DNA of 55,045 nucleotides from a virus: the IMG/VR virus record IMGVR_UViG_3300034168_000196, positions 1-55,045 of that record; one strand, written 5' to 3'. A program made the translations under genes and the position numbers. The notes under the pieces are model-generated. The model did no database searches. It was not told the DNA's origin and worked only from the letters and a program-made list of their open reading frames with translations. Shown here piece by piece: positions 3,326 through 54,436 of this stretch. Each line of letters begins with the position of its first letter. Within the stretch, counting starts at the first letter, position 1.

Positions 3326-3326
3326 A

Positions 3327-3983
3327 CTACCAATCTGTATTGGTTGATGAAGTAGTTGATGGTGAGTCAAAGCCTAGATAAAAGGCTTCTTGTTCTGCAT
3401 AAGGAACTTTGCGAAGTGCAAGTTCTAGTTGGAATGGCTCAATACCAGTCCAGTCAAATGGTTCTTTATCTGGTGCTGCTGGAATCATTGTGTAATTTGT
3501 TTCAGTACCCTGACCATTACGCTTCATTTTCCAAACAACATTTGAAATGCTACCAGTCTCAAGTGCATATTCACGAATTGTATTAAAGGATGATTGCTTG
3601 CTAATTCCCATAGACCAAATGGCTACGTATGGTTTTTCAATTCCGTCATCAACTAATACGTTACAGTAAAAGCGGAGACGACCACGCCATCCAGCCTTTG
3701 GGTCTTTACGGTGCATTTCTTCTGCCCAGTCACGACCTTCTGTTTCCATAGTATCTACTGCTTTGCGTTTGTAATCTTTTGGATTTACGTGTTCTTTAAC
3801 AACTAAAGATAGACCACGAGATGCATTATAATTTGCAGAGTCTTCGTCTAGTTCTTCAATAAAGCGAATCTTTACTGATTGTCCATCAGCAAGTTTAAGC
3901 CATCTTACCTTTGGTGAGTTTTCATCGTATTTTGGTTTGTCGAGCAGGGCGTTGATGTTTTTTAATCCCTTTACTACGCTCAT
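3327..3983 (-). CDS. gp32-like single-stranded DNA-binding protein
   Basis: This 218-residue protein probably coats ssDNA during phage replication. The central region (about residues 90-150) has the pattern seen in gp32-like phage proteins: a basic RGRLRFYCNVLV strand, a hinge, then a YVAIWSMG strand and an S-x-x-N helix. The C-terminus is polar and rich in S, T and D, as in many SSB tails. I see no clear zinc-binding set like that of T4 gp32. The gene has a strong ribosome-binding site (AAAGGAGAAGG) and its own promoter at 4012-4040. It lies one base before the polymerase gene, which supports a replication role. The family call rests on pattern and context only. Confidence 0.62.
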   Translation of the reverse strand: MSVVKGLKNINALLDKPKYDENSPKVRWLKLADGQSVKIRFIEELDEDSANYNASRGLSLVVKEHVNPKDYKRKAVDTMETEGRDWAEEMHRKDPKAGWRGRLRFYCNVLVDDGIEKPYVAIWSMGISKQSSFNTIREYALETGSISNVVWKMKRNGQGTETNYTMIPAAPDKEPFDWTGIEPFQLELALRKVPYAEQEAFYLGFDSPSTTSSTNTDW

Positions 3984-34690: not shown

Positions 34691-36298
34691 TTAATTAGAA
34701 GATCTGCCTTCGCCTTGTGCATTTCTTCCAGCAATTGTGGATGGGCTATCAGAATTATTGTTTGCTCTTTGGGAATCTCTTTCTCTATTCCCTGCTAAGT
34801 TTGCTCTAGCATCTGTTTCTTGTCTTGGACTCATTTCAAATGGGATATCTCCATCTTTAATTTGTGGCAATCCAAGTTTCTCTCTTGCTTCATTTGGCAT
34901 CATTACTTGGGTCTTAACATACCGTTCAAGAATTTGAGACTGAGAAATTTCATCAGTAAGCGTAAGTTCGTTAAATTTAAGTTCAAGAATGTCGGTTTTT
35001 TCACGAATAATTTTGTTAATTAGTTTTGATATTTCATTCTGTGCTGGACGAGAAACCTGTTCTTTAAATGTGCGATCCTGTGCAAGTGCGTTGGCAATTG
35101 ACCCAGAATCTCCTCCACCCAATTTAGACAATGGAACCTGATGGGCCACTAGAATATCGTTTCTGTTTTGAAGTCTATATTCTTTAAAAGATCCTTCTTG
35201 AACGCCATTTTCAATTGGCTTCATGTCAAACTCAACTTTACTATTTTCAGTATCTCCTGGAAGCGGAATATACAAAGTTCTGTGAGACTGACCTTTTAAT
35301 CCAGTTTGTAAAAATCTAAACATTTTGTCTTCTGCATCTGCACTTAACTTAGCGCCTTTAAGTGTAATGATATATCTTGGCACTGCCTTGTTCTCAAAGT
35401 AATCAATATTGTAGTTTGATGCAAGTTGATCACCAATAAGTGAAGCAAGGGCTGAAATAATATCTGGAACTCCATAATAAGTATTTAATGGAGAGTATTG
35501 CTTAAAATGAATAACCTCATTTGGTCTCGTATCTGTTGTTACAGGGTTTTGATTCTTTGCCCCAAAATTTCTAAAGTATGTAACTGATGGCTGAATAATC
35601 TGAACATATCCGTCATTTAATCTGCGAACACGCATTGTTGTTGATGGAATATGACCAATGTAACCAATCTCTCCTGTTACTTTACGACCAATTTCCATGT
35701 ATCCATTTCCAGTTGCCTGCACATCTACATAAATCTTTTCCATAATTTTTGTAAAACTGTCGTCATCGTTAAGGGTTTCTAACCAATCACGCATTTCAAT
35801 CTTTGCTCTTTCAATTCTTTTACGAGCACGACCAAGAGAATTTTCATCCTCAACGTTTTCAAGTTTTAGCATGGTACGTGAAGAAACAACAAAATCATAG
35901 CCAAGACCAACGACGTTTTCTACTTTAGCGTCGATAGCAGCATGGTTTGCAAAAGATGTATCGTAATAGTTTGCTAATTCATAAAGGTTATAGGGGGGTG
36001 TAATTACATCAAAAAGCCCATAACCATTTCTAACTGCTGTTCCTGGATTGATGGCTTTTGATTTTGTGTTATCTGTACCAGACTGAACTGCATTTGCGCT
36101 ATCTAAATATGCGGAAGTTGGATCTACTGCCTTGCCAAGAGTACGAGCAGTGCGCCTTTTAAAATTTTGATCAAGATTGTTTAAATTTTTAATAAAATCC
36201 CAGTTTTTATTAAAAGGATCGTTCTTTTTAAATTCATCCTCTTTGTCTGCAAGATTATCAATACTTGCTCCAAGATAGTACTCTTCTTCATCAATCAT
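34691..36298 (-). CDS. Portal protein (PBSX-like family)
   Basis: A protein of about 535 residues forming the dodecameric portal through which DNA is packaged. Typical segments are NLYELANYYDTSFANHAAIDAKVENVVGLG split over residues 105-135, EVIHFKQYSPLNTYYGVPDI with ISALASLIGDQLASNYN (about 265-300), and SFKEYRLQNRNDILVAHQVP (about 375-395). The C-terminal tail is long, polar and probably disordered. I choose the ATG at 36296-36298, ten bases after GGAG. Another ATG nine bases upstream would leave only one base after that site. The start overlaps the stop of the upstream gene. Confidence 0.9.
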   Translation of the reverse strand: MIDEEEYYLGASIDNLADKEDEFKKNDPFNKNWDFIKNLNNLDQNFKRRTARTLGKAVDPTSAYLDSANAVQSGTDNTKSKAINPGTAVRNGYGLFDVITPPYNLYELANYYDTSFANHAAIDAKVENVVGLGYDFVVSSRTMLKLENVEDENSLGRARKRIERAKIEMRDWLETLNDDDSFTKIMEKIYVDVQATGNGYMEIGRKVTGEIGYIGHIPSTTMRVRRLNDGYVQIIQPSVTYFRNFGAKNQNPVTTDTRPNEVIHFKQYSPLNTYYGVPDIISALASLIGDQLASNYNIDYFENKAVPRYIITLKGAKLSADAEDKMFRFLQTGLKGQSHRTLYIPLPGDTENSKVEFDMKPIENGVQEGSFKEYRLQNRNDILVAHQVPLSKLGGGDSGSIANALAQDRTFKEQVSRPAQNEISKLINKIIREKTDILELKFNELTLTDEISQSQILERYVKTQVMMPNEAREKLGLPQIKDGDIPFEMSPRQETDARANLAGNRERDSQRANNNSDSPSTIAGRNAQGEGRSSN

Positions 36299-36665
36299 CG
36301 GAACCATGCTCCTTTATTGTTTGCTGTGCTGCATGAACTGCGCCCAAATCATTCATATTGGGAATAAGTCCTTCTTTCATTCTGGCAATCTGCTCAGAGT
36401 ATTCCATCTCACTTACACGATTTACGCCAGGATGAAAAACTGGTTTTCCTTCTGGCTGACCCCAATATTCTGCTGCTTTGCGTAATTCCATGATCTTTTC
36501 AAGATCACCTTTACGTGCAGGAATGTTTAAAAGGTTTCCGTGACCATCTCCAAAAACCTTGCCATTGGGTTTTTCCCAAAAATATAAACCCCAATCATAG
36601 TTTTTTTCAATAAGTTTTATCTTAGACTTACCAACTTCTCCTGGTTTTTTCTCTCTCATAACCAT
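36291..36665 (-). CDS. Conserved protein upstream of portal, unknown
   Basis: A 122-124 residue soluble protein with WGLYFWEKPNGKVFGDGHGN near residues 25-45 and a helical C-terminal half. I do not recognise a family. The slot directly before the portal often holds terminase or packaging helper genes, but nothing here shows such activity. Two starts are possible, ATG at 36663-36665 or the third codon ATG at 36657-36659. The second lies seven bases after a TGGTATACT element, so a leaderless message from that ATG is likely. Confidence 0.75.
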   Translation of the reverse strand: MVMREKKPGEVGKSKIKLIEKNYDWGLYFWEKPNGKVFGDGHGNLLNIPARKGDLEKIMELRKAAEYWGQPEGKPVFHPGVNRVSEMEYSEQIARMKEGLIPNMNDLGAVHAAQQTIKEHGSDD

Positions 36666-42972: not shown

Positions 42973-43626
42973 CTACTCCAGTAATTTCCAAGGATTGGGA
43001 ACAGTATTGGTCGGTGATGATCCATACAATGGTTGAATATCATAAGCAATTGTAATTCTTTGTTTATCAAAATACCAATCATCTCGTCCGTGAGGATGTC
43101 CCGTTTCTGAAACAATTAGCCTATTGTTTTTATTAACATTTTCAAATAATTCTGTTCCGTTAATTTTATAAAATGTAGTTGATGGTTCCGCATTTACACA
43201 GTAATAACCATGAAAAATTGGAGCACCAGTTCCTCCTACGTGATCATGAAAATGATTTTCATGTTTTATTGGTGATACCCCAGCAGTTCCTTTTGACGAT
43301 GAGTCTATATTAAACCAACCATGAATCATGTAATTGTGTTTTATAAAATCAATACCATAATATTCACAAGCCTCTTTTGTGGCATCAATTAATCCATTAA
43401 AAAGATTTTTAATATTTTCATTGTCAAAATCAAAGACATTGTAATAATGGTCTAATTGGCTTGGTGCTCCCTGACCCTTTTTTGTATATTTTTCAACTTT
43501 ATCTAGAGGAATATTGGCAAATTGCTTATTTATAATTTCATCTTCTTTTAAAGATAAAAAGTTAAAAAGATTGTCTAAATCATTATCTAAATACCGTTCA
43601 AAAAATTTATGTGGTTTTTTTAACAT
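42973..43626 (-). CDS. 2OG/Fe(II) oxygenase-like protein, copy 1
   Basis: A 217-residue protein of the phage 2-oxoglutarate/Fe(II) oxygenase type. It has the IHGWFNI strand, metal-binding H127-D-H129, an FHGYYCVNAEPS strand, a distal GHPH (H177 and H179) and an R190-ITIAYDI strand that would bind 2-oxoglutarate. It is a close paralog of the next gene: both begin KPHKFFERYLDNDL and share ACEYY, GWFNI and NKNNRLI segments. The substrate is unknown; phage relatives may modify proteins or nucleotides. It overlaps the other copy by seven bases. Confidence 0.75.
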   Translation of the reverse strand: MLKKPHKFFERYLDNDLDNLFNFLSLKEDEIINKQFANIPLDKVEKYTKKGQGAPSQLDHYYNVFDFDNENIKNLFNGLIDATKEACEYYGIDFIKHNYMIHGWFNIDSSSKGTAGVSPIKHENHFHDHVGGTGAPIFHGYYCVNAEPSTTFYKINGTELFENVNKNNRLIVSETGHPHGRDDWYFDKQRITIAYDIQPLYGSSPTNTVPNPWKLLE

Positions 43627-44228
43627 AAAGGAATCCAGTGTTGTTCTTGGCTCATTAAATCTCTTTGAAGATTTTTTAATGGAAGAATATCATATGCAAC
43701 TGTAATTCTTTTGCCTTCCCATTCCCAATCATCCATAGAATGTGGATGGCCCATTTCAGACATAATTAAACGATTATTTTTATTAACATTATCAACATGA
43801 GTACCATTAACACTATATTTAGTAATAGAAGGCTCTGCATTTACGCAATAATATCCATGAAAAAGATTTTCATTGCTTGGTCCATGATCATGCCAAGTTA
43901 ATTTTCCTTTATTTGCACTGTTTATATTAAACCAACCTTGAATGAAATAATTTTGTTTTGCAAAATCAATTTCATAATATTCACAAGCCTCTTTTGCAAG
44001 AGTTGAAATTTCTGTATATAAATTTCTTATTCCAGTAATATAAAATTGAAAAACATTATAATCTCTCCATTTAATTGTTGAAATACTGTTTGAAGATAGC
44101 CAGATGTCTTTTGTATTTACTTTATTGCCATCTTTAATAATATCGTATCTTTTAATTAATTCATCTGAAAGTTCTTCTAGGTCATTATCTAAATACCGTT
44201 CAAAAAACTTATGTGGTTTTTCTGTCAT
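43620..44228 (-). CDS. 2OG/Fe(II) oxygenase-like protein, copy 2
   Basis: A 202-residue paralog of the downstream gene with the same order: GWFNI, H113-D-H115, FHGYYCVNAEPS, GHPH (H161 and H163) and R174-ITVAYDI. The loop before the metal site is shorter than in copy 1, and the middle (about 30-60) differs. The two may form a heterodimer or act on different substrates. A GGGAG site and a TGGTATACT promoter precede it. Confidence 0.75.
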   Translation of the reverse strand: MTEKPHKFFERYLDNDLEELSDELIKRYDIIKDGNKVNTKDIWLSSNSISTIKWRDYNVFQFYITGIRNLYTEISTLAKEACEYYEIDFAKQNYFIQGWFNINSANKGKLTWHDHGPSNENLFHGYYCVNAEPSITKYSVNGTHVDNVNKNNRLIMSEMGHPHSMDDWEWEGKRITVAYDILPLKNLQRDLMSQEQHWIPLC

Positions 44229-44259: not shown

Positions 44260-45006
44260 TCATTGATATTGTTTTTTTTTCCAAAACTTTAATCTATATC
44301 CATTTTCAAAGGTCGAGCGTAAGTTTTTTCTTTGTTCATATAATAATCCAGTGTCAAAATCTTCATTAATTTTAGATTGCCATTTTTCTCTTTTGAATGG
44401 AATAACTTGAACTATTGGAGTTCCCTGTTTAATAACTCCTTTATAATTTTTTTTAACAAAATAAGATAGGAGTCCATCTGAATAAAAATTATCGCTATCA
44501 ATTATTGCTGGTACTGCTTGAATTGGCAAATCATGATGCATTGGTGGCATAAACAAAGTACTATATCCTTTTGGGGTTGACACAAGCCAAATTGGATGAA
44601 TTCTTAATAAATTATCTAAATATAAATCTTTATCTAATGGGTATTCAGATATTTGTAATGTAGGGTGAACTCCTAAAATTGGTTGATTTAATTTTCTAAA
44701 TGGTTCGGGAATTTCAATTAATGTTTTATTATCTGTTGTGTCTATATAAATATCAACTGGTGCTAGTAAAAAATAACCACTTGTCATCCCATCAAAAATT
44801 GCTTGACATTTTTTTACAGTTAATTGCATTACTCCATTTACCAAACTCCTATCATTATTATAATGACTAGGTTGTTTTTTATACCATTCGGGAACATTAG
44901 CAATTGCTGGCTTTGGTTCTGGAAATATTTTTATCATTTTTGGATAGGCAAGATCAAATTGAATAATAGGATCTTTATTAAACCATTTTATAACATTTTT
45001 TATCAT
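44260..45006 (-). CDS. Conserved phage protein of unknown function (248 aa)
   Basis: A 248-residue soluble protein of a type I recall from T4-like aquatic phages, without a known role. Recognisable segments are VPEWYKKQPSHYN near residue 38, the LTVKKCQAIFDGMTSGY segment, STPKGYSTLFMPPMHHDLPI, and GTPIVQVIPFKREKW near 200. The repeated aromatic and Pro pattern suggests a binding fold. It starts the auxiliary island ahead of the oxygenases and reductase. The ATG sits six bases after an excellent promoter and has no Shine-Dalgarno sequence. Confidence 0.72.
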   Translation of the reverse strand: MIKNVIKWFNKDPIIQFDLAYPKMIKIFPEPKPAIANVPEWYKKQPSHYNNDRSLVNGVMQLTVKKCQAIFDGMTSGYFLLAPVDIYIDTTDNKTLIEIPEPFRKLNQPILGVHPTLQISEYPLDKDLYLDNLLRIHPIWLVSTPKGYSTLFMPPMHHDLPIQAVPAIIDSDNFYSDGLLSYFVKKNYKGVIKQGTPIVQVIPFKREKWQSKINEDFDTGLLYEQRKNLRSTFENGYRLKFWKKKQYQ

Positions 45007-45012
45007 GTAATA

Positions 45013-45041
45013 AGTATACTACATTTGATCTTTTGTGTCAA
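45013..45041 (-). promoter_or_regulatory. Near-consensus leaderless promoter, TTGACA-17-TATACT
   Basis: TTGACA (45036-45041), a 17-base spacer and TATACT (45013-45018) form the best promoter in the window. The ATG of the 248-residue protein follows exactly six bases after the -10, with no Shine-Dalgarno sequence. The promoter lies inside the last codons and stop of the Hint-containing gene. Confidence 0.8.
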
Positions 45042-46269
45042 AAACCAACATATTATCTGTAAAGAAGTTGTCGTATGGCTCACAGTTAATAGAATAAACT
45101 GTTTCTTCATAATCAATTGCCTCTACAGAAATGATTGCTTCAAAATCAAATGCTGCATATGAATAAACAAAATATGTAGAATCAATTTCATCTGCTCTTG
45201 TAAACTTAACAACATCATCTTTTTTGGTTAAAACATAATGTGAACCAGAATATAAATCTCCGTTAATAGAATAGATCTTATCTGTTTGATGAAGATTAAT
45301 GCTTACAATTTCAGTCTCTACAACATTGTCAGAATTTAAAACAATATCAGAACTTTGCCAAGATGTCCAATCTAATACATTTTCAGATGGAATATTCATT
45401 CCATAAAGTTTGTCTCCAACTTGTAGTTCAGATGCTGGTTTTCTTCCATCAACTGTTAAAACTCCTGTATTTCTGGCAACTGAATATTCAGAATAGGATG
45501 GACCAAATGGAGTAAAACCAAATGGAGTAAAACCAAATGGAGTAAAACCAAAGGGTGTAAAACCAAAAGGGGCAAATGGTGTAAAACCAAAAGGGGCAAA
45601 TGGTGTAAAGCCAAATGGAGTAAAACCAAATGGGGCAAAACTAAATGGGCTAGGTGTTGTTACTGTATTAGAGGATGCTGAGTTTGCTGAGTTTCCATTA
45701 GCATTTGTTGAAAATACTTGATAGGATTGTGATGTACCTGCAGTTTCTGCAACTAATTTTGTTGTAACTGCTGCTCCAACGGCATATGTTGGTCCATCAG
45801 AAGAAACTACAGTATTCCCAGTAATTGCACTTCCACCATTGGCATTAATTGTCCAGTTAACTGTATCTCCTTGTGGAGCATCTCCACTTGTTGTAGTAGT
45901 TCCAATTGTTGGTGCTTGAGGCACTGTTGTTGCAGTGATAGAAGCAGATGCACTTGATGCAGCAGATGATCCATAAGCACTATTTGCTACTACCGTAAAT
46001 GTATATGCTGTGTTTGATTGAAGTCCAGTAATTGTAAGTGGTGAACTAGCACCAGTGACTGTATAAGATCCAGGAGATGATGTAGCAGTATATCCAGTTA
46101 CTATAGCAGTATTTCCTGTAGTTGCTGGAGTAAAGGCAACAGTTGCAGCACCGTTATTATATGCTCGTCCAGTTCCAACATTGGTTGCAGAAACTGCAGT
46201 TGGTGCATCTGGAGCAATAAAGTTATCTTGTGCTGCTGACTTAATACCTTTTTTTCTACCTGCTGCCAT
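45019..46269 (-). CDS. Fibre-like protein: two FN3 domains, GFTPF repeat linker, C-terminal Hint domain
   Basis: A 416-residue protein in three parts. Residues 20-210 are two fibronectin III-like domains. Residues of about 213-258 are an F/G/T/P linker of GFTPF repeats, some with an APF insertion. Residues 263-410 form a Hint (hedgehog/intein) domain: S263-V-A-R-N-T-G-V-L-T-V-D-G (block A with Ser instead of Cys), H344 in SGSHYVLT (block B), and a final NFFTDNMLVFD in place of a His-Asn end. There is no homing endonuclease and almost no C-terminal extein. Ser1 could still allow an N-O acyl shift and self-cleavage; that is a prediction. Its last 520 bases match the gene at 52728-53612. Confidence 0.8.
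   Translation of the reverse strand: MAAGRKKGIKSAAQDNFIAPDAPTAVSATNVGTGRAYNNGAATVAFTPATTGNTAIVTGYTATSSPGSYTVTGASSPLTITGLQSNTAYTFTVVANSAYGSSAASSASASITATTVPQAPTIGTTTTSGDAPQGDTVNWTINANGGSAITGNTVVSSDGPTYAVGAAVTTKLVAETAGTSQSYQVFSTNANGNSANSASSNTVTTPSPFSFAPFGFTPFGFTPFAPFGFTPFAPFGFTPFGFTPFGFTPFGFTPFGPSYSEYSVARNTGVLTVDGRKPASELQVGDKLYGMNIPSENVLDWTSWQSSDIVLNSDNVVETEIVSINLHQTDKIYSINGDLYSGSHYVLTKKDDVVKFTRADEIDSTYFVYSYAAFDFEAIISVEAIDYEETVYSINCEPYDNFFTDNMLVFDTKDQM
45038..45557 (-). repeat. 520-base near-identical duplication, copy A (Hint cassette)
   Basis: This stretch matches 52753-53272 at a constant offset of 7,715 bases with only two differences that I found, and no gaps. It codes for the start of the GFTPF linker and almost all of the Hint domain. 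The 3' boundary falls within the -35 of the neighbouring promoter. Confidence 0.93.
45505..45640 (-). repeat. 15-base tandem repeat encoding GFTPF linker
   Basis: A run of variants of aaatggagtaaaacc (plus strand) codes for repeated G-F-T-P-F units, with shorter nine-base APF units between some. The array is longer here than in the twin gene near 53218-53300. Confidence 0.88.
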
Positions 46270-46292
46270 TTTGTCCTCTTCCTTTTAATTTA

Positions 46293-48563
46293 TTATGCTG
46301 ACAAATCTCCCATTAATACCCAAGAGTCTGTTGCTCTCTTAAATAAAGTTGCAGAAGACCATTGACCACGTAACTTAGCACCAGGAGTGAAGTTTAATGT
46401 TACTCCTACTGCTTTATCAAATGTAACTTGTCCTGCTCCAATTTGAAGGAAATCAATGGATGTTCCAACTGGGAATGCTGTTGTTGCATTTGTTGGAATT
46501 GTTATAGTAAATCCACTTACTTTATTACATTCTACTAAAGTATCTCTTAATGCTAAACCACCAGTAGATAAATTATATGTATCAGTTATTGTACTAATAC
46601 TTGTTTGTGATGGAACGCCTACCTTTGTTTGTGTGCCGTCAGAAAATGCTACACCAGTTGCTGATGCTGTTACAAGACCAGAGAATGTTGGATTATTAAT
46701 AACAGAAACTTCATTTCCAGTAACAGAGATATTTGTTCCTGCTGTAACTGTTCCTACACCAGCAAATTGACTAAATGCTATTGCATCAGTTCCAACTGTT
46801 CCTACTATATTTGTTTGTACCCAGCCAGTATTATCATTAACAGTACCACCAGTTACGAATACAAAGTCTCCACCATCAATTTCTGCTGGTGCATCAAAAT
46901 CTGTTGCTCTTGAAGGAGCACCTGATGCTGCTACTACATAAATACCATTTTCAGATGCAGTTGATTGATTCTTAACAAGAATACGATTGCCTGTAGCAAG
47001 AGTAACTCCATCAAGAGTATCTCCATTTTCTACCGCTGTTGCAAGAGTGATATTAGCAGTTGTTGCTGCTACTACTGAAGCATGTACGTGCAAACCTTCT
47101 GCAAGTGAATCAACATATTGCTTTGTTGCTGCTCCAAGTGCTGTTGCTGGATCTGCAGCAAGAACTACTGCACCAGTAAATGTTGCACCAGAAAGTGCGG
47201 CTTTGGCAGCAAGATCTGTTGTTAAATTTGCAATTTTAGACTGTGCAATTGCTGCTGATGTATTAATATCTCCATCAACAATTGTGTCATTAGCAATTTT
47301 TAGGGAAGTTACTGCTCCATCTGCAATCTTTGCTTCTGTAACTGCTAAACCACCAATTTCATTAGTTCCAACTGAATCATCAGACATCATTGATTGTGAA
47401 ATTGTGTTTGCAGGCAGTGTTACTGTTCCTGTAAATGTAGGAGAGGCTAGTGGTGCTTTAGCATCTAATTGTGTTTGAATAGCAGAGGTAACTCCATCAA
47501 CATATCCAATTTCAGTTGAAGTTACAGTTCCAATTGAAGTATTTACAGGAAGAACAACATCTCCAGTAAATGTCTTTGCTCCTCCAAGTGTTTGTGCACC
47601 TGATTTAAGCACAATGTCGGATGTATCTGAAATACCGTGAACCTCTGTAGTGTCTGTTCTATGTGTCTCAATATCTGCAGCAAGTGCTACAGTTCCACTT
47701 GCGTCTTGAAAAGTAATTGTACGATCTGCTGTAGGATCTGTTATTGTTAGACTGGTTTCAAAATCATTTTCTGTAGCACCTTCAAAAATAATGTTAGTAT
47801 TAAAAATTAAATCATTAATATTTCCTGTTGTAATTATAGTTCCTGTTGCATTTGGCAACATAATTGTGCGGTCTGCTGTGGGATCTGTTACTGAGAGGGT
47901 AGTTTCATACTCATCTGCTGTAGTACCTTCAAAAGTTAAACTACCAGTTAGGGTTCCACCTGCTAATGGAAGATAAGAAGATATTGTGGAAGATATTGTG
48001 GTGTCTACATATCCTTTAGTTGATGCATCTGACTCTACTGTTGGTGTGCCAAGATTTGTAATTTTATTACTTCCCATTGCAATTGCAGCCTGCATTGTTC
48101 CACCATCTGATTTAGATAATTTTGTAGCAAGTGCGGCTGTAATTGTTGATGCATATGATGCATTATCATCAAGAGCATCGGATAGTTCTCCTAATGTATT
48201 TAGGGCTGCTCCTGCTGTTCCTATAAGGTCAGTAATATCTGACATTAATGCGACTGTTCCTGTTGCATCTGGAAGAGTGATGGTCCGATCTGCCGTAGGG
48301 TCTACTACTGCTAGGGTGGTTTCAAAAGCATTTGCTGTAGCACCTTCAAATTTAATGTTTGAGCCAAATTGGGGGTTTACTGTACTGTCTGCGTCCATAA
48401 AATAATCAAGGCTTAGCCAGTGGTTGGTGCCATCACCAATTTTAAATTTATTAGTATCTGACTCGTAGCCAATTTCTCCGGCTGCAAGAATTGGGCCATT
48501 GCCACTATTGGTTGATATCCATTGGGCTGCAGTGCCTCGTCTCTGTTGCATTCTTGTTGCCAT
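46293..48563 (-). CDS. Tail fibre protein with Mtd-like N-terminus (756 aa)
   Basis: A 756-residue fibre. The first 50 residues (MQQRRGTAAQW, GEIGYESDTNKFKIGDG) match the N-terminal domain of the major tropism determinant and related fibres, which attaches the protein to the tail. Three repeats of the FEGAT, TDPTADRTITLP and ATGTVAL type follow. Next come a YVDGVTSAIQTQLDAK segment and an ILVKNQSTASENGIYVV domain. The protein ends in a shared C-terminal module finishing in GDLSA. No reverse transcriptase or variable-repeat pair is visible. An AGGGGGA site and a TGTTATAAT promoter precede it. Confidence 0.82.
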   Translation of the reverse strand: MATRMQQRRGTAAQWISTNSGNGPILAAGEIGYESDTNKFKIGDGTNHWLSLDYFMDADSTVNPQFGSNIKFEGATANAFETTLAVVDPTADRTITLPDATGTVALMSDITDLIGTAGAALNTLGELSDALDDNASYASTITAALATKLSKSDGGTMQAAIAMGSNKITNLGTPTVESDASTKGYVDTTISSTISSYLPLAGGTLTGSLTFEGTTADEYETTLSVTDPTADRTIMLPNATGTIITTGNINDLIFNTNIIFEGATENDFETSLTITDPTADRTITFQDASGTVALAADIETHRTDTTEVHGISDTSDIVLKSGAQTLGGAKTFTGDVVLPVNTSIGTVTSTEIGYVDGVTSAIQTQLDAKAPLASPTFTGTVTLPANTISQSMMSDDSVGTNEIGGLAVTEAKIADGAVTSLKIANDTIVDGDINTSAAIAQSKIANLTTDLAAKAALSGATFTGAVVLAADPATALGAATKQYVDSLAEGLHVHASVVAATTANITLATAVENGDTLDGVTLATGNRILVKNQSTASENGIYVVAASGAPSRATDFDAPAEIDGGDFVFVTGGTVNDNTGWVQTNIVGTVGTDAIAFSQFAGVGTVTAGTNISVTGNEVSVINNPTFSGLVTASATGVAFSDGTQTKVGVPSQTSISTITDTYNLSTGGLALRDTLVECNKVSGFTITIPTNATTAFPVGTSIDFLQIGAGQVTFDKAVGVTLNFTPGAKLRGQWSSATLFKRATDSWVLMGDLSA

Positions 48564-48595
48564 AATTTAATCCCCCTAGATTTTATTCTTTCTTT

Positions 48596-48604
48596 ATTAT
48601 AACA
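48596..48604 (-). promoter_or_regulatory. Extended -10 promoter (TGTTATAAT) for the 756-residue fibre
   Basis: TATAAT at 48596-48601 with TGT upstream lies 32 bases before the fibre ATG and leaves a leader with AGGGGGA. No -35 match is seen at 17 bases. Confidence 0.6.
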
Positions 48605-48609
48605 TATGA

Positions 48610-49080
48610 TTAATTAAAGTTATCTAACGGACTTCCGCCATCATAACTAGTTAACCACTCTACTGAATCGTAAAACCCTGCAATTTGTGTTGAAGAGAAT
48701 ACATCATCATATGCTCCTGCATCTTGAAAAACGGTAGTAATAAGTCCCGTTCCATCAATTGCAGTATCGTGAATATGTTGTCTCAAGTTTGCAGTATCAT
48801 CAAAAGTAGCAATCATGATCCAGTCAGCAGCATCTGTTGAATATATCGAAAGATGTTGCGTAACTGTATCAAAATATATTTGTCCATCTACTGGTGCAAC
48901 TGGAGCAGTTGATTCGGTTGGGACAACGTTTGCATTTCCAGCAACCGTATCAACATACAACTTAGTTGCTGCGTGTGCATTTAAAGTTGGGGTAGCAACT
49001 GTAACAGTTCCTCCGAAAGTACCAGTTGTGGCTACATTTAAGCCATTCTTGACCTTGAAGTCTTTATCTGTTGTTGGCAT
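48610..49080 (-). CDS. Small fibre-related structural protein
   Basis: A 156-residue protein opening with DKDFKVKNGL, the same opening motif as the next fibre gene. A segment near 60-95 (VAPVDGQIYFDTVTQHLSIYST) is typical of short head or tail decoration proteins. The C-terminal 50 residues are unassigned. It lies between two fibre genes and has a GGGGGT ribosome-binding site. Confidence 0.72.
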   Translation of the reverse strand: MPTTDKDFKVKNGLNVATTGTFGGTVTVATPTLNAHAATKLYVDTVAGNANVVPTESTAPVAPVDGQIYFDTVTQHLSIYSTDAADWIMIATFDDTANLRQHIHDTAIDGTGLITTVFQDAGAYDDVFSSTQIAGFYDSVEWLTSYDGGSPLDNFN

Positions 49081-49104
49081 TTACTACCCCCTACTTTTTA
49101 TTTG

Positions 49105-50850
49105 TTAAGCCTCGATGTATGTTTTGTGAACTTTAACAACTGTATCTGCTGCAGCACCAGTTACTTGAAGAAGAACGTTTCCAGCACTGTAAACAGCGTT
49201 TGTTGTTCCTAGTTCAGCATTGCTAACTACATCAGCATACTCTGTTAAGTAAACGTTATTTGATCCATCAATAGTAACAAGCAATTCAATTACTTCAATA
49301 TCAGTACCCTTTTTCATTTGAACGATATATTTAGCGCTTGAGTATGTGCTTGCTGACCAAGTATCAATAGTTGTTGCAGTTGCAGCAGCGGTTCCTGTTG
49401 CAGATCCAACAAGAGTATCTGGAAGAGCAATGCTTGTTGCAGTTGCTGCGCCAAGTACTGGGGTAACAAGAGTTGGTGTATTAGCAAATACTAATGCGCC
49501 TGTTCCTGTCTCATCTGAAATAACTCCTGCAAGTTCTGAAGATGATGTTGCAGCAAGTGCTGAAATTTTACTTGTTGTATAAACACCATTTGTAACTGTT
49601 GCAGCATTTCCTGTATATTCTGTTGCAGAAAGAACCTGAGTTCCATTAATTTTTAATACCTTGCCAGAAGCAAGATCCATGTGCTCAGAAGATGTCCATG
49701 CATCAGTTGCATCAATCCATGAGAAGGTCTTGTCTGTAGTACCCTTAAGAGTAAGACCACCACCGTCTGCACCTGCATCTGTTGGAGTTGCTACTGAACC
49801 AAGTGTAAGGTTCTTGTCATCAACTGTAATTTCTGTTGAGTTAATTGTGGTTGTTGTACCGTTTACTGTTAAATCCCCTGACAAAACAAGAGATGTACCA
49901 GTTGCAGCACCAATGTTTGGTGTTACAAGTGTTGGGGTATTAGCAAAAACAAGTGCTCCAGTACCAGTCTCATCAGAGATGATTCCAGCAAGTTCTGAAG
50001 AAGATGTTGATGCAAGTACGTTCAACTTATCTGTTGTTACAACAAGAGTCTTTGTGCTTGGAATGCTTGTACCATTGATAGAATCAGCAGTTGCAACACC
50101 AAGTGCTGGAGTTGTAAGAGTTGGGCTTGTAAGAGTCTTGTTTGTGAGAGTCTGTGTATTTGTTGTTCCAACTACTGCACCAGTTGCACCGTGTGCTGTT
50201 GTTGATCCTGTATGTGTTGTAAGATCTGCATCAGCAGCCTTTGCATTTAATTGAGTCTGAATTGCTGATGTCACACCATCTACATAATTAAGTTCTGTTG
50301 TAGAAAGAGTTGCTCCATCAAGAATATTAAGTTCTGTAGAACTTGCTGACATAACAACATCTTCGTTAATCTTTGGTGATGTTAATGTTTTGTTTGTAAG
50401 AGTTTGTGTGTTTGTTGTTCCAACTACCGCACCAGATGCGCCGTGTGCTGCTGTTAGGTCTGCGTGAGTTGTAACGTCTGAAGTAAGTGCTACTGTACCT
50501 GTAGCATTTGGAAGTGTGATTGTCCGATCTGCGGTTGGATCTGTGACTGTAAGTGTTGTCTCATAGTCGTCTGCTGTTGCGCCTTCAAAAGTAATTTCTG
50601 TTTGAAATACACCAACTGCTGCTGGATCTGACCATTGAACGCCATATGTTGCACCTGACGCTGCAGTGAGGACCTGTCCGTTGCTTCCAACGCCAAGACG
50701 TGCTATTGCATCATTTGCACTACCAACAATTAAATCACCTTTAGCATCTACAGTTCCTGCGGTAATAACATTTTTACCATTAACAGTTGCTGTTTCTCCT
50801 TGAACAATTAAACCATTTTTTACTTTAAAATCTTTTTCTACTGTTGCCAT
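49105..50850 (-). CDS. Tail fibre protein with repeated modules (581 aa)
   Basis: A 581-residue fibre starting EKDFKVKNGL. It has one FEGAT/DPTADRTITLP repeat like those in the 756-residue fibre, then two TNTQTLTNKTLTSP repeats and two SSSELAG-ISDETGTGALVF repeats. Its C-terminal domain (about 495-581, YIVQMKKGTDIEVIELLVT) parallels the whole C-terminal part of the next gene. The repeats suggest a long trimeric shaft. A GGAGAT site precedes the ATG. Confidence 0.8.
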   Translation of the reverse strand: MATVEKDFKVKNGLIVQGETATVNGKNVITAGTVDAKGDLIVGSANDAIARLGVGSNGQVLTAASGATYGVQWSDPAAVGVFQTEITFEGATADDYETTLTVTDPTADRTITLPNATGTVALTSDVTTHADLTAAHGASGAVVGTTNTQTLTNKTLTSPKINEDVVMSASSTELNILDGATLSTTELNYVDGVTSAIQTQLNAKAADADLTTHTGSTTAHGATGAVVGTTNTQTLTNKTLTSPTLTTPALGVATADSINGTSIPSTKTLVVTTDKLNVLASTSSSELAGIISDETGTGALVFANTPTLVTPNIGAATGTSLVLSGDLTVNGTTTTINSTEITVDDKNLTLGSVATPTDAGADGGGLTLKGTTDKTFSWIDATDAWTSSEHMDLASGKVLKINGTQVLSATEYTGNAATVTNGVYTTSKISALAATSSSELAGVISDETGTGALVFANTPTLVTPVLGAATATSIALPDTLVGSATGTAAATATTIDTWSASTYSSAKYIVQMKKGTDIEVIELLVTIDGSNNVYLTEYADVVSNAELGTTNAVYSAGNVLLQVTGAAADTVVKVHKTYIEA

Positions 50851-50865
50851 TTTTTATCTCCTTTT

Positions 50866-51312
50866 TTATGCCTTTAATCCCATACGTGCATAACGTACGG
50901 TGATTGGGGTTATACCGATAACTGGAGTAACCGTTACGGATACTGTATTTCCAGCACGGGAGACGCTAATGGTGCCAATATTCCCATCATTGTCGATTGT
51001 TCCATACTCACTGACAGATACACCTGTAGTATCAGCAAGAATTGTCATTTCTGTTGCGTAATACTTGTTCTCGCCACCAGAAGTCTTTTTAATAGAGATC
51101 ATATACTTAACTGCTCTATATTCAGTTGCATCAAAATTATCAATTACTGTAGCAGTTTCAATGCCGTTGATTGTTGACTCATTGTTTCCTGCACTACCCA
51201 AATCTGTTGCTTGAGCGCTTGCTGTGTCAATAAAATCTTCAAAGTCCGTCTGTGAAGGACGATCTCCTGTTTGAAATCTTAACTTTAAGTTTGCTAGTGA
51301 TAGACGGGCCAT
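50866..51312 (-). CDS. Short fibre/tail protein sharing the C-terminal domain of the long fibre
   Basis: A 148-residue protein. After a helical N-terminus (LANLKLRFQTGDRPSQTDFEDFIDTA split over 5-30), residues 60-146 have the same domain as the end of the 581-residue fibre (RAVKYMISIKK, ATEMTILAD, VSEYGTI). It is probably a separate fibre tip or adaptor. The ATG lies six bases after TGTTATAAT and has no Shine-Dalgarno sequence. Confidence 0.72.
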   Translation of the reverse strand: MARLSLANLKLRFQTGDRPSQTDFEDFIDTASAQATDLGSAGNNESTINGIETATVIDNFDATEYRAVKYMISIKKTSGGENKYYATEMTILADTTGVSVSEYGTIDNDGNIGTISVSRAGNTVSVTVTPVIGITPITVRYARMGLKA

Positions 51313-51318
51313 GTTTAT

Positions 51319-51327
51319 ATTATAACA
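51319..51327 (-). promoter_or_regulatory. Leaderless extended -10 promoter (TGTTATAAT)
   Basis: TATAAT at 51319-51324, extended by TGT, is followed after exactly six bases by ATG. There is no Shine-Dalgarno sequence and no -35 at 17 bases, so a leaderless message is predicted. Confidence 0.65.
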
Positions 51328-51335
51328 TAATTTTA

Positions 51336-51653
51336 TTACAAGATATAGTTAGAAAAACCAATTATCTGCAGACCAATTCCTGGGGGATTCAAAGGATCTA
51401 TACCTTCAATACCTATATTAGTTATCTTTAATCTGAATGGAAGTATTGCATTTATTGATACCTTTTTAGAATAGTCAACTGTTTTTATACCCGAAGATTT
51501 AAAACCTTTTATTGGAGTTATTTTGGTTTTTGTTTTAACATCAGTTAAAGTTGTTTTTGAATAGTTAACAGTTTTAATTTTGGAAGACTTAAAATCTTTT
51601 ACTGCAGTTACTTTTGTTTTTGCCTTAACGTCAGTTAGTGTTGCTTTAGCCAT
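51336..51653 (-). CDS. Small structural protein with internal 30-residue repeat
   Basis: A 105-residue protein. Two direct repeats of about 30 residues (TLTDVKAKTKVTAVK and TLTDVKTKTKITPIK, each followed by a KSS or GFKSS and KTV-x-YSK segment) fill residues 4-64. The C-terminal part (LKITNIGIEGID, PPGIGLQIIGFSNYIL) is a pattern I recall from aquatic phage structural proteins. It starts three bases after the preceding stop with no Shine-Dalgarno sequence, so translation is probably coupled. Its function is unknown. Confidence 0.7.
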   Translation of the reverse strand: MAKATLTDVKAKTKVTAVKDFKSSKIKTVNYSKTTLTDVKTKTKITPIKGFKSSGIKTVDYSKKVSINAILPFRLKITNIGIEGIDPLNPPGIGLQIIGFSNYIL

Positions 51654-51656
51654 TTC

Positions 51657-52073
51657 TTATGACTGATCTGTAACTTCGCCAAGCATGATCATTTCTCCTT
51701 GACATACAGTCCAAACCCTTGTAGCATCTGTAAGTTGAACATCAAAAACATCACCAGTTCTTAGTTGTTTAGATTGAGCGGGAGTTAAAGAAACTAAAAA
51801 CTCTCCATCTCCATCAGTTACTGATTGTACTGGTACTAACTCAAATATTAAATCATCTCCAACGTTGTCAGAGTACCGTCTAAAATCGACCTCAATGTCC
51901 CAATCATCAACTACAATTGGATCTCCTGCATCATCTTGTACATATATTCTAAAAGAGGCGCTATCGCCAATTACAACCGTCCAGTTAACCAATGGTGGCT
52001 TATTTCCAATATTGTAGGTAGAAGGAGCCTTTACATCCATCTCTGATTCGTCTGGATTGCGGTATTTAGCCAT
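51657..52073 (-). CDS. Ig-like (BppU N-terminal-like) virion protein
   Basis: A 138-residue beta-rich protein. The layout (NWTVVIGDSASFRIYVQDD, strands, then VSLTPAQSKQLRTGD and VFDVQLTD) resembles the N-terminal Ig-like domain of baseplate upper and similar phage proteins. The ATG lies six bases after TGATATAAT and lacks a Shine-Dalgarno sequence. It is probably a virion adaptor or decoration protein. Confidence 0.72.
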   Translation of the reverse strand: MAKYRNPDESEMDVKAPSTYNIGNKPPLVNWTVVIGDSASFRIYVQDDAGDPIVVDDWDIEVDFRRYSDNVGDDLIFELVPVQSVTDGDGEFLVSLTPAQSKQLRTGDVFDVQLTDATRVWTVCQGEMIMLGEVTDQS

Positions 52074-52079
52074 AAAGAA

Positions 52080-52088
52080 ATTATATCA
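52080..52088 (-). promoter_or_regulatory. Leaderless extended -10 promoter (TGATATAAT)
   Basis: TATAAT at 52080-52085 extended by TGA is followed after exactly six bases by the ATG of the Ig-like protein gene. There is no Shine-Dalgarno sequence. It faces away from the plus-strand promoter about 20 bases away. Confidence 0.68.
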
Positions 52089-52103
52089 CATTAAGTCTTT
52101 AAG

Positions 52104-52133
52104 TTGACTCAATATCCAAATCCATGATATACT
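52104..52133 (+). promoter_or_regulatory. Plus-strand promoter for the lysozyme-like gene
   Basis: TTGACT (52104-52109), an 18-base spacer ending in TGA, and TATACT (52128-52133) form the only clear plus-strand promoter. The predicted start lies about 52140, at the first base of the hairpin that follows. It is divergent with the leaderless promoter at 52080-52088. Confidence 0.7.
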
Positions 52134-52140
52134 AGTGAGT

Positions 52141-52167
52141 AACACCATAACTTTATGGTGTTTTTGT
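52141..52167 (+). terminator. Terminator-like hairpin at the start of the lysozyme leader
   Basis: AACACCAT and ATGGTGTT pair around a short AACTTT loop and are followed by a U-rich tract (TTTTTGTTT). The stem would begin with the first bases of the plus-strand transcript. It has the form of an intrinsic terminator placed between promoter and gene, so it may attenuate expression, or serve as a 5' stabiliser. AAGGAGG follows at 52172-52178. Confidence 0.6.
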
Positions 52168-52185
52168 TTCTAAGGAGGAACAGTC

Positions 52186-52731
52186 ATGACAACTAATAAG
52201 ATAGTGATTGGAATACTCGCAGCAGTAACTGGAATTGCTTTGTTCTCTAATTCTAGTGCTAATGCTGAAAATAACTTGAGTAGTACCGTGTCAAAAAGTG
52301 AAACCCAAACCGCTGAGGCGGTTTTTTCAGTTTCTAAAGAAGAAAATAATAAAACTAAGAAAAAGTACAAATATGGAACCCCTCTTGAAAAAGATGAACT
52401 AATTAAAATATTAAAGTCTGTAGGGTTTGAAGGCTATGCACTAAAAGTTGCTTGGGCAACAGTAATGAAAGAATCTATGGGTACTCCTAACTCTTGGAAT
52501 CCAAATAGAAACACTGGAGATAATTCTTATGGCCTATTCCAAATCAATATGCTAGGATCAATGGGTCAAGATCGACGGGATAAATTTAATTTAGAATCCA
52601 ATGAAGATCTATTCGATCCCGTTAAAAATGCAGAGATTGCTTATCATATGAGTGATGGTGGTAAAGACTGGTCTGCCTGGAAGGGTATTACTTGGAAGAC
52701 TAAAGAGTGGCTTGCAAGGTATCCTGATTAA
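52186..52731 (+). CDS. Exported lysozyme/lytic transglycosylase-like protein
   Basis: A 181-residue peptidoglycan hydrolase of the SLT/lysozyme-like fold. Residues 1-27 are a signal peptide (basic start, hydrophobic IVIGILAAVTGIALF, likely cut after ANA). Residues 30-65 are a polar linker. The catalytic domain has E96 (VMKES) and GLFQIN (116-121), as in transglycosylase and goose-type lysozyme families, and ends about residue 180. It is the only plus-strand gene, with its own promoter and a strong AAGGAGG site. It may serve as an exported endolysin, or as a wall-modifying accessory gene. No holin was recognised nearby. Its stop overlaps the stop of the Hint gene tail to tail (TTAA). Confidence 0.85.
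   Translation: MTTNKIVIGILAAVTGIALFSNSSANAENNLSSTVSKSETQTAEAVFSVSKEENNKTKKKYKYGTPLEKDELIKILKSVGFEGYALKVAWATVMKESMGTPNSWNPNRNTGDNSYGLFQINMLGSMGQDRRDKFNLESNEDLFDPVKNAEIAYHMSDGGKDWSAWKGITWKTKEWLARYPD
52307..52328 (+). terminator. Terminator-like hairpin inside the lysozyme coding sequence
   Basis: A perfect seven-base stem (AAACCGC with GCGGTTT) and a four-base loop are followed by a run that makes six Ts in total. It lies in the codons of the linker (residues 41-48), before the catalytic domain. Unless it is suppressed, plus-strand transcription could stop here. On the minus strand the U-run is weaker (TTTGGGTTT), but it might also limit readthrough from the Hint gene. Confidence 0.6.
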
Positions 52732-53612
52732 TTATTTGTTTTATCTTTACTATCAAAAACCAACATATTATCTGTAAAGAAGTTGTCGTATGGCTCACAG
52801 TTAATAGAATAAACTGTTTCTTCATAATCAATTGCCTCTACAGAAATGATTGCTTCAAAATCAAATGCTGCATATGAATAAACAAAATATGTAGAATCAA
52901 TTTCATCTGCTCTTGTAAACTTAACAACATCATCTTTTTTGGTTAAAACATAATGTGAACCAGAATATAAATCTCCGTTAATAGAATAGATCTTATCTGT
53001 TTGATGAAGATTAATGCTTACAATTTCAGTCTCTACAACATTGTCAGAATTTAAAACAATATCAGAACTTTGCCAAGATGTCCAATCTAATACATTTTCA
53101 GATGGAATATTCATTCCATAAAGTTTGTCTCCAACTTGTAGTTCAGATGCTGGTTTTCTTCCATCAACTGTTAAAACTCCTGTATTTCTAGCAACTGAAT
53201 ATTCAGAATAGGATGGACCAAATGGAGTAAAACCAAATGGAGTAAAACTAAATGGAGTAAAACCAAAGGGTGCAAAAGGTGTAAAACCAAATGGTGCAGG
53301 GGATGCAGCAGGAGTAGCCGAATTGCTTGAAGCAGATTCTAATGATGTAGCAACACCGTTTCCTAATTTTACTTTAAATGTATAGGCTGTTCCATTTGAT
53401 AAACCACTAACAGTTATTGGAGAGGTTGAAGATGTTCCAGTTATACTAGATGGAGTTGAAGTTGCAGTATAAGTTGTTCCCGTTGGTTTTCCTAAATATG
53501 AAGGGGCTGTAAAAGTAATTGATGCACTAGCATCTCCTGCTGTTGCGGTTCCAATTGTTGGAATTCCTGGTTGTATTCCTCCACTACCTGAAGATATTGG
53601 TGGTAATGGCAT
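52728..53612 (-). CDS. Fibre-like protein: one FN3 domain, short GFTPF linker, C-terminal Hint domain
   Basis: A 294-residue protein. I place the start at the ATG at 53610-53612 (MPLPPIS), forming TAATG with the preceding gene; a TTG 30 bases upstream is less likely. Residues 10-95 are fibronectin III-like. Residues of about 100-135 are a GFTPF/APF linker. Residues 139-287 are the Hint domain, nearly identical to that of the gene at 45019-46269, with Ser139 at the Cys1 position and an FD end. The C-terminal tail (SKDKTNN) differs from the twin. The gene is convergent with the lysozyme-like gene. Confidence 0.8.
   Translation of the reverse strand: MPLPPISSGSGGIQPGIPTIGTATAGDASASITFTAPSYLGKPTGTTYTATSTPSSITGTSSTSPITVSGLSNGTAYTFKVKLGNGVATSLESASSNSATPAASPAPFGFTPFAPFGFTPFSFTPFGFTPFGPSYSEYSVARNTGVLTVDGRKPASELQVGDKLYGMNIPSENVLDWTSWQSSDIVLNSDNVVETEIVSINLHQTDKIYSINGDLYSGSHYVLTKKDDVVKFTRADEIDSTYFVYSYAAFDFEAIISVEAIDYEETVYSINCEPYDNFFTDNMLVFDSKDKTNN
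52753..53272 (-). repeat. 520-base near-identical duplication, copy B (Hint cassette)
   Basis: The partner of 45038-45557, with two differences seen: one near 53190, and one in the linker near 53249. The sequence diverges beyond both ends, where each gene has its own N-terminal domains and C-terminal tail. Confidence 0.93.
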
Positions 53613-54436
53613 TATGCACTCAAGTCGCCAATTGCAATCCAAGTATTGGTTGCTCGTTTAATTAGTGTGCAGGACGAATACTGTGCTCTTAATTTTGCTG
53701 CATTTGAAGAAATTTGAGGTGTACAATTTAATGTAACTCCAGCAGAAACTGTTACTGTTGTTGCTCCAGTTCCAGTTTGAATAATTGTAATCTGTGAACC
53801 AGTTGCAAAAGCCTGAGTTGAATTAGTTGGAATGGTAACTGTATTTGCAGTTGATGTTAAATTCATTTCAATAATTTTATATCCATCTGACAAAACCAAT
53901 GTATGATCTGCTGTTTTTTCTAAAATAGTAAAATTTAATGCAGACGTGCTCTCTGCAACTGTTTTTACTGCAGTTGGTGTTGCTGCTTTAACTGATGAGG
54001 TTTCTGATATTGAATCACTTAGTTGAACACTTCCCACAACAGATGTGGTTGCTGCAGTTACCGCAGGTGGTGCCCATTTAACTCCAAGTGTTTCTGCTGT
54101 ATCTGCTGTTAAAAGATATCCGTTACTTCCTCCTGGAATTGATAAATTATCTAATGCGTTGTTACCAGATCCAACAAAAAGATCTCCTTTTGCGTCCATA
54201 ACAGATTCTAAAACAACTGCGCTAGTGTCTGTAGAAATTTCAGCGATTGATGCTTCAATTTGTTTTAAATAATATGCAATACCTGCAGTTGGGGCTACGC
54301 CAGTTGCAATGGGAGTGTCTTGTCCATAATGATAATTTCTTAATGCAATCTGAATATCTGCAGCGTCAGTTAGCGCTGGCATTTTTGCAAGGGGATAGTG
54401 ATGAGTTTGATCAGTTCCAATGTTTCCGGCAGCCAT
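53612..54436 (-). CDS. Fibre-like virion protein (274 aa)
   Basis: A 274-residue protein with a helical N-terminus, a DAKGDLFVGSGNNALDNLSIPGG segment of the fibre type (about 105-127, shared in form with the 581-residue fibre) and a beta-rich C-terminus. The last 75 residues (TIPTNSTQAF, VTLNCTP, KLRAQYSS, TLIKRATNTW, GDLSA) match the C-terminal module of the 756-residue fibre. It is probably part of a fibre complex with the Hint gene that follows. The ATG lies six bases after TGGTATAAT with no Shine-Dalgarno sequence. Confidence 0.75.
   Translation of the reverse strand: MAAGNIGTDQTHHYPLAKMPALTDAADIQIALRNYHYGQDTPIATGVAPTAGIAYYLKQIEASIAEISTDTSAVVLESVMDAKGDLFVGSGNNALDNLSIPGGSNGYLLTADTAETLGVKWAPPAVTAATTSVVGSVQLSDSISETSSVKAATPTAVKTVAESTSALNFTILEKTADHTLVLSDGYKIIEMNLTSTANTVTIPTNSTQAFATGSQITIIQTGTGATTVTVSAGVTLNCTPQISSNAAKLRAQYSSCTLIKRATNTWIAIGDLSA

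Follow-up and report, generated by a model that had tools for sequence, protein, structure and literature searches.

The 55,045-nt virus record IMGVR_UViG_3300034168_000196 of IMG/VR (analyzed over its full length and hereafter ‘the window’) carries a 520-nt repeat at the ends of two genes, A and B, each lying directly downstream of a fibre gene. We read this repeat as a recent copy of an exchangeable cassette, made of a repeat linker and a Hint domain, on a fibre-associated and probably fibre-tip protein; with docking onto the fibre and self-processing as its inferred components, we assign this reading a probability of roughly 0.6. Comparison with relatives suggests the end piece to be a module that phages swap between fibre sites and between genomes. 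Support is strongest for the exchange of the cassette, which comes from direct comparison, and declines from the putative fixation of each head to its own fibre to the putative self-processing by the Hint domain.

The repeat pair in the window

The two copies align without gaps at a constant offset of 7715, differ at two positions (45475 and 45534) and share a longest exact identity of 437 nt; an automated repeat listing gives the same repeat in fragments (families D1 and D3). Beyond either border, identity at this offset is close to chance level. Encoded in the cassette are the final GFTPF repeats, followed by a domain of ~150 aa. At the protein level, the Hint parts of A and B agree in 155 of 157 residues and the first 75 head residues in 23, and the tails after the Hint domain are unlike (TKDQM and SKDKTNN). 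An earlier note on this DNA had described a near-identical 520-base cassette with two differences, flanked by unlike FN3 domains and tails, as one Hint domain on two unlike heads; all of this holds. The features concerned are as follows.

45019-46269, minus strand: gene A, 416 aa, with FN3 head, GFTPF linker, C-terminal Hint domain and tail TKDQM (open reading frame, Pfam)
45038-45557, minus strand: repeat copy A, end of the GFTPF linker plus Hint domain, 2/520 differences from copy B
45037-45483, minus strand: Hint domain A, from the Ser at intein position 1 to the Asp at the C-terminal Asn position (AlphaFold2 model; range 6-154 aligned to 1-440 of the Mtu RecA intein)
45484-45651, minus strand: GFTPF-type linker of A, borders approximate (translation, 15-nt repeats)
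46293-48563, minus strand: fibre gene A, encoding 756 aa and lying immediately upstream of gene A, with a GDL domain at 46296-46640 (Mtd_N; GDL profile 5.6e-48)
52186-52731, plus strand: lysozyme-like gene just past gene B, a flank in the replacement comparison below (SLT_3 4.4e-16; 514/540 to locus L070)
52728-53642, minus strand: gene B, open reading frame of 304 aa, with FN3-like head, GFTPF linker, C-terminal Hint domain and tail SKDKTNN (open reading frame, Pfam)
52753-53272, minus strand: repeat copy B, end of the GFTPF linker plus Hint domain, 2/520 differences from copy A
52752-53198, minus strand: Hint domain B, like A by the offset of 7715 (repeat identity, AlphaFold2 model, structure alignment)
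53199-53306, minus strand: GFTPF-type linker of B, borders approximate (translation, repeats)
53612-54436, minus strand: fibre gene B, 274 aa, its stop overlapping the start of gene B, with a GDL domain at 53615-53959 (GDL profile 2.6e-41)

Pfam places fn3 in gene A above its cut-off (26.4 bits; cut-off 25), a second FN3 being recognized by eye, and Intein_splicing below it (21.4 bits; cut-off 35.8); in gene B, both fn3 (20.0 bits) and Intein_splicing (22.3 bits) stay under the cut-off. Searches against PHROGs left gene A without a match and returned only phrog_38766 (virion structural) for gene B. The open reading frame of gene B opens at a TTG (53642), and an ATG at 53612 overlaps the upstream fibre stop as TAATG, its A being the last base of the stop; this ATG is probably the actual start.

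The arrangement recurs in separate records. The 44.4-kb IMG/VR contig G003 holds both copies in the same order, with two fetched blocks 100% identical to the window, and contig G001 starts inside the cassette with tail B and continues through the intervening 7 kb to copy A. Since these records represent nearly the same strain as the window, their agreement reflects separate assembly and not independent evolution. The concern, raised in the earlier note, that the twin might be an artefact of the window's own assembly is thereby refuted, and we regard an assembly artefact in general as scarcely credible: although exact identity over 437 nt can lead assemblers astray, and the contigs of three loci (L013, L014 and L028) begin or stop inside the cassette, the same layout stands in the window, G003 and G001, and the copies differ in their heads, their tails and at two positions. 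In a fourth record, G002 (locus L004, 4130-4670), head B is joined to tail A and the intervening 7 kb are missing; the change-over falls within the 437 identical bases, and the other compared stretches follow the window. Deletion or recombination between the copies and a false assembly join would each give this structure. Counting all cassettes of the window strain with both ends present, the window included, three join head A to tail A, four B to B, one B to A and none A to B. One B copy (L006) has two linker changes of its own, at 53241 and 53268, absent from copy A; the two sites are therefore also free to drift apart.

Exchange of cassettes behind resident heads

Relatives were collected with DNA seeds for VYSINCE or PYDNFFT, both within a C-terminal motif, and the best 80 of 95 were kept. 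Seeds on the N-terminal side returned 27 loci, 24 of them on contigs already included; of the three new loci, the motif is present in L145 and L161 and absent from L149. The last is a divergent viral Hint protein that ends in ITHNK and lacks the EPYD motif. The set consists of 80 records, 65 of them distinct: 67 are loci, and 13 are copies taken from the window and from six longer regions. Sixteen loci stand outside this set of 65: L003-L008 (the window strain, including the head B/tail A join), L149, and nine covered by the longer regions (L009, L034, L035, L036, L056, L066, L075, L079 and L083). The A2 search covered 50 of 76 loci; the other 26 lie on shorter records (at most 18.8 kb), six of which were searched with P0001. 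A crude head/linker table, which mislabels G026_481 and G042_3603 as FN3, was not used for counts.

The clearest replacement is seen at site B. Compared with the window, locus L070 matches in 561 of 600 positions across fibre end and head, in 269 of 477 across linker and Hint domain, and in 514 of 540 downstream, where the flank comprises the lysozyme gene and the stretch just before it; that is, ~93-95% in the flanks and 56% inside (sums of 60-nt bins, excluding three border bins with 48, 47 and 48 of 60). Farther upstream, the fibre is less alike, with 33-36 of 54-60 positions in three bins. BLAST leaves 53291-52841 unaligned, a segment that lies within the stretch common to both window copies bar its first 19 bases. 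In another locus (L051), divergence starts as in L070 and the downstream DNA is displaced. At site A, records G014 and G013 agree to 80-100% in each of the bins covering fibre end and first FN3; from the second FN3 onward, agreement drops to ~35-60%, except in the bin of the conserved C-terminal motif (48/60). The NCEPYDNFFT stretch within that motif was considered as a DNA-level crossover site; we make no such claim, as we estimate that identical residues whose third codon positions vary freely would yield roughly the 42-52 matches per 60 seen there in the compared pairs.

Cassettes and heads are thus found in both kinds of re-pairing. The same head precedes a different cassette in window B and L070 (71 of 75 head residues, 50% Hint identity), in G014 A and G013 A (71, 41%) and in L031 and L044 (72, 48%), and different heads precede the same cassette in window A and B (23 of 75, 99%) and in L089 and L091 (15 of 75, 91%), whose heads are FN3-like (below cut-off) and PASTA, respectively. 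The portal protein is 98% identical to that of the window in G041, 96% in G038 and 98% in G028 (over the first 491 residues); the Hint domains of G041 and G038 reach 46% identity to the window, and those of G013 55-57%, though its portal stands at 82%. Near-identical portals going with 46% Hint domains imply that the history of the cassette differs from that of the backbone.

Across 54 loci, distances correlated (Mantel, read descriptively) at 0.41 between fibre end and head, 0.25 between fibre end and Hint, and 0.45 between head and Hint. The partial correlation of fibre end with head given Hint was 0.34, as opposed to 0.08 for fibre end with Hint given head; that of head with Hint given fibre end was 0.39, so the cassettes are not fully free to move. 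From these comparisons, the heads look to stay with their site and fibre, linker plus Hint being the exchanged part. The earlier note had envisaged a swappable system in which a common domain serves several adhesins. Re-pairing of cassette and head does recur among relatives, but its polarity looks reversed, with heads that stay and a cassette that moves; heads acting as free adhesins on a common base find no backing in the data, since head and fibre end co-vary beyond Hint.

A plain recent duplication or gene conversion within one genome, leaving paralogous fibre units with one homogenized end and involving no swap between genomes, would account for the 2/520 difference in the window and for the G002 join, which is of the kind expected from recombination between copies. 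We nevertheless consider it distinctly unlikely, because it leaves unexplained both the replacement between genomes at one site with intact flanks and the occurrence of one cassette behind FN3-like and PASTA heads in different genomes.

Similarity within genomes also varies. Between the two Hint domains of one genome, distances were 0.01 in the window, 0.26 in G042, 0.26 in G026, 0.32 in G006, 0.33 in G013 and 0.56 in G014; among 53, the own partner ranked 1/1, 1/1, 1/2, 4/6, 6/7 and 29/24, respectively. By eye, the two copies of G042 and those of G026 also share the segment immediately preceding Ser1, with unlike heads in front of it. Over the 120 permutations of five lineages, only the true pairing was as close as observed, to which phage lineage contributes too. 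On these distances, cassette sharing is present in several lineages, recent only in the window and absent in G014. General concerted evolution was rejected, the nearest Hint domain not being the own-genome partner in G006, G013 and G014, and the higher within-genome identity that had been proposed as the mark of ongoing conversion is not a general feature. As for the recent duplication or gene conversion that the earlier note put forward, recombination stands as the cause; recent homogenization is seen in the window's lineage only, where a recent double acquisition would leave the same picture.

The genes that carry the cassette share a common setting. In all 54 readable cases among the 65 distinct Hint genes, the upstream gene ends in a conserved GDL domain, the residues GDL being followed by two or three more. 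The model of this 115-residue fibre end (mean predicted local distance difference test, pLDDT, 93.5) matched the Pa223 capsid spike (Z 14.6), a KP1 baseplate chain (9.7), CBA120 tailspike protein TSP4 (9.1), a T4 baseplate chain (8.0) and T4 gp9 (7.9), the last named a long-tail-fibre connector in its PDB entry title. The XD domains of TSP4 are described as binding other tailspikes, and T4 gp10 as sharing these folds (PMC8825819). Since most of these Z values lie near the level that the tool calls common, the resemblance to a docking domain amounts to no more than a hint.

A census with the GDL profile over 26 records, chosen among the longer ones, found one such end in 10, two in 16 and three in none; all seven records of at least 79 kb have two. 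Both ends are followed by a Hint gene in seven of the 16 two-end records (G000, which is the window, G003, G006, G013, G014, G026 and G042), with the window and G003 belonging to a single strain. The nine others have a Hint-less repeat protein behind the second end: in G029, G034, G037, G053 and G055 it combines a PASTA-like head with Pro-rich repeats and Cys-rich parts, and in G028, G038, G041 and G050 the head is a different one. Pfam called PASTA above cut-off in G029 and below it in G034 among those tested, named no domain in the proteins of G028 and G050, and the proteins of G038 and G041 are alike by eye only. PASTA heads followed by Hint occur in G026, L046, L069 and L091, all above the Pfam cut-off. 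As second GDL ends often lead to Hint-less proteins and PASTA heads occur with Hint too, the Hint domain is an optional part. The single ordinary fibre gene in related genomes that would have spoken against the earlier note is found in part, namely as these nine records with Hint at one site. Hint-less second-site proteins (L162-L170) have long VTPPVTP, VTPAVTP or PTPTPA repeats with Cys-rich inserts, or belong to another Cys-rich type.

That a GDL end is always followed by Hint was considered and dropped: the count was 49 of 49 in 69 loci, but 33 of 42 tips in the 26 whole records. The former figure is a selection effect, those loci having been fetched around Hint genes.

The Hint domain and a working model

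An AlphaFold2 model of the end domain, built from 38 aligned sequences, had a mean pLDDT of 91.8. Foldseek searches of the PDB gave 52 matches at E≤0.001, the best being bacterial intein-like (BIL), intein and Hedgehog domains (6y75_A: E 7.9e-08, template modelling score 0.70), and VIA-align aligned 137 residues to BIL, intein and Hedgehog structures at a root-mean-square deviation of 2.2 and Z up to 18.3. Judged from this model, the end domain is a member of the Hint superfamily (Hedgehog/intein fold) over its whole length. A sequence profile search of PDB sequences with the Hint domain returned nothing at E≤0.01.

In the structure alignment, model residue 6 falls on the first residue of inteins and on residue 258 of the Hedgehog structure 1at0, and residue 154 on 440, the final residue of the Mtu RecA intein, which we take to be Asn. 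Every one of the 65 distinct relatives (effective number 41.8) has Ser6 (intein position 1), Thr11 and His87 (numbering of P0001). Hint starts were located by a Ser-requiring pattern; wherever the MAFFT alignments cover the position, they likewise show Ser. Going by motif and intein numbering, His87 presumably stands at the block-B His position, Ser136 at that of the block-F Asp and Asp143 at that of the block-F His. At residues 153-154, the place of the His-Asn pair, the 65 relatives read FD (53), YD (4), KD (3), WE (2), YN (2) and MD (1), and never have His. The protein ends 3-12 residues after the Hint domain in all 65, so that the domain is C-terminal in every distinct gene; the +1 residue is not conserved, and identity to the window's Hint domain drops to ~40%.

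With the C-terminal His-Asn gone and only 3-12 residues following, splicing is unlikely. A class 1 splicing intein was rejected on these grounds, the penultimate His being absent in 65 of 65, the +1 residue unconserved and no C-extein present, and Hedgehog-type autoprocessing with a sterol-recognition region was set aside, since the protein stops so soon after the Hint domain. Type B BILs are described as lacking block G and cleaving without splicing, and inteins ending in Asp or Glu are recorded as well (PMC4031507). The block G His-Asn is lost from the Hint domains of the relatives. Self-processing on the N-terminal side is possible on these residues.

A spread of the cassette as a mobile, intein-like selfish element into fibre-associated genes seems very improbable. 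Hint is indeed present or absent at the second site (seven of 16 two-tip records have it) and common to both window sites; however, a domain of ~153 aa would, from its length, have no room for an endonuclease, it is C-terminal in all distinct genes, one pattern scanned against a prokaryote genome collection found no relative, and the loss of splicing residues would be self-defeating.

A real if minority possibility is that the Hint domain is catalytically dead, a stable beta fold serving as a receptor-contacting or trimer-closing adhesin end that is swapped like receptor-binding modules. The C-side catalytic positions are replaced, identity falls to ~40% as in the often-variable receptor-binding parts, and the swap pattern resembles that described for Ackermannviridae tailspikes (PMC8432352). 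Yet Ser1 and the block-B His are fixed in 65 of 65 amid this variation, and a dead domain need not keep both. We put self-processing at Ser1 against a structural role at about even odds, and think self-cleavage or acyl transfer that matures the protein the most likely outcome.

Taken together, we propose the following model for the exchangeable cassette. Two fibre sites are common in these genomes, each comprising a GDL-ended fibre followed by a gene for a head, a repeat linker and, optionally, a Hint domain. As the comparisons show, recombination replaces the cassette behind the head, between sites as in the window and between genomes at one site as between the window and L070. The 5′ border lies within or close to the linker repeats, or else at an FN3 border, and the 3′ border at the conserved C-terminal block. 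The head may dock on the GDL end of its own fibre, placing linker and Hint distally, as gene order, co-variation and fold likeness suggest. The Hint domain, judging from its residues, may act on the bond that precedes Ser1, either activating or cleaving it in the manner of type B BIL or Hedgehog-like domains. Also conceivable, though we hold it unlikely, is a live Hint domain acting as a single-use acyl-transfer device, in which, upon adsorption or in the course of assembly, Ser1 would take over the C-terminus of head and linker as an ester and hand it on to a nucleophile of the host surface or of the neighbouring fibre chain; the phage would then tether itself or lock its tip covalently, and a reactive end would be traded between fibre sites.

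Several points weigh against the model. Docking of the head on the GDL end draws only on gene order, co-variation and fold likeness, the GDL domain also matches a chaperone-substrate complex chain (6o38, Z 8.4), and nine of 42 GDL ends precede a Hint-less protein. G014 has two unlike cassettes (42% Hint identity), and the Mantel permutations ignore shared ancestry. Retention of the domain for its fold alone would also be compatible with Ser1, with the Ser and Asp that stand in place of the block-F Asp and block-F His, respectively, and with the C-terminal His loss. Finally, conservation of the C-terminal motif is partly inflated because the seeds lie in it; Ser6, Thr11 and His87 lie outside.

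Genomic surroundings and known systems

Around site A, the gene at 44260-45006 (minus strand) matches phrog_7084 (unknown function; 1.9e-40), and look-alikes follow Hint genes at site A of many relatives (by eye). Next to it, 42973-43626 and 43620-44228 (both minus strand) are adjoining, overlapping genes that form diverged direct repeats (80-87% in three blocks), a tandem duplication; Pfam gave a weak, sub-cut-off match only for the latter. At 4041-5480 (minus strand), near the DNA polymerase gene, lies a match to the PHROG ‘tryptophan halogenase’ (2.3e-90), a cargo we judge unusual for a phage. The nearest isolates by portal (34691-36307, minus strand; 46%) and DNA polymerase (50-3370, minus strand; 54%) are Streptomyces phages, and the fibre has its best matches in Pelagibacter phages. 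From the portal and polymerase affinity, our guess is an actinobacterial host, despite a G+C content of 34.6%.

Type B BIL domains are among the closest known counterparts: they share the Hint fold and the loss of block G, and BIL domains are the best structural matches. At position 1, Cys is commoner than Ser. The window's Hint domains differ in having Ser there, in standing C-terminally in phage fibre-associated proteins and in that their cleavage is putative. Type B BILs are reported to cleave without splicing and to be located in variable regions of bacterial proteins (PMC4031507, PMC7765530).

Among annotated phages, homologous places were found only in Erwinia, Dickeya and one Yersinia phage, at ~24-34% identity. 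The Erwinia phage pEa_SNUABM_2 (Alexandravirus; YP_010300551.1; L135 2993-4435) shares a C-terminal Hint domain, a virion-structural annotation and a tail/fibre gene region, but has a collagen-like head and keeps Cys1, THEH and a C-side His-Asn-Thr. Going by these residues, its Hint domain could carry out full cleavage or splicing, making it a candidate for active processing in cultured phages. Entries of uncultured phages in BFVD bear the names ‘Fibronectin type III’, ‘PASTA_pknB’ and ‘Hint domain’.

In T-even phages, the fibre gene 37 is followed at once by gene 38, whose product, a tip protein, has both low-complexity repeats and variable segments. The likeness of the present pair to gp37-gp38 lies in gene order, the second gene being directly 3′ of the fibre gene in 54 of 54 readable loci; to our knowledge, gp38 has no Hint domain.

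For the tailspikes TSP1-4 of Ackermannviridae, conserved anchors and receptor modules exchanged between the spikes of a single phage genus have been described (PMC8432352). Both systems would thus combine a conserved anchor with exchanged modules, and the GDL domain resembles part of TSP4 (Z 9.1); the modules, however, are beta-helix receptor-binding parts there and a repeat linker with an intein-like domain here. For the TerL intein of phiCbK-like phages, intein DNA was suggested to provide homology for swapping a neighbouring domain (PMC3556154), in that case a true intein within the terminase rather than the C-terminal Hint domain of a fibre protein.

If our reading is right, a group of uncultured phages has co-opted an intein-like domain as the exchangeable end of its fibre-associated proteins, which links Hint autoprocessing to the module swapping behind phage host range. 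With two sites per genome, many natural pairings of head and cassette, and a fixed Ser1 and His, these phages would offer a test bed for maturation by self-cleavage. The literature searched, which leaves most subscription journals outside, held no paper on an exchangeable Hint cassette in phage fibre proteins. Hint domains in phage structural proteins and the swapping of receptor modules are each already known; what would be new is their combination as an exchangeable fibre end.

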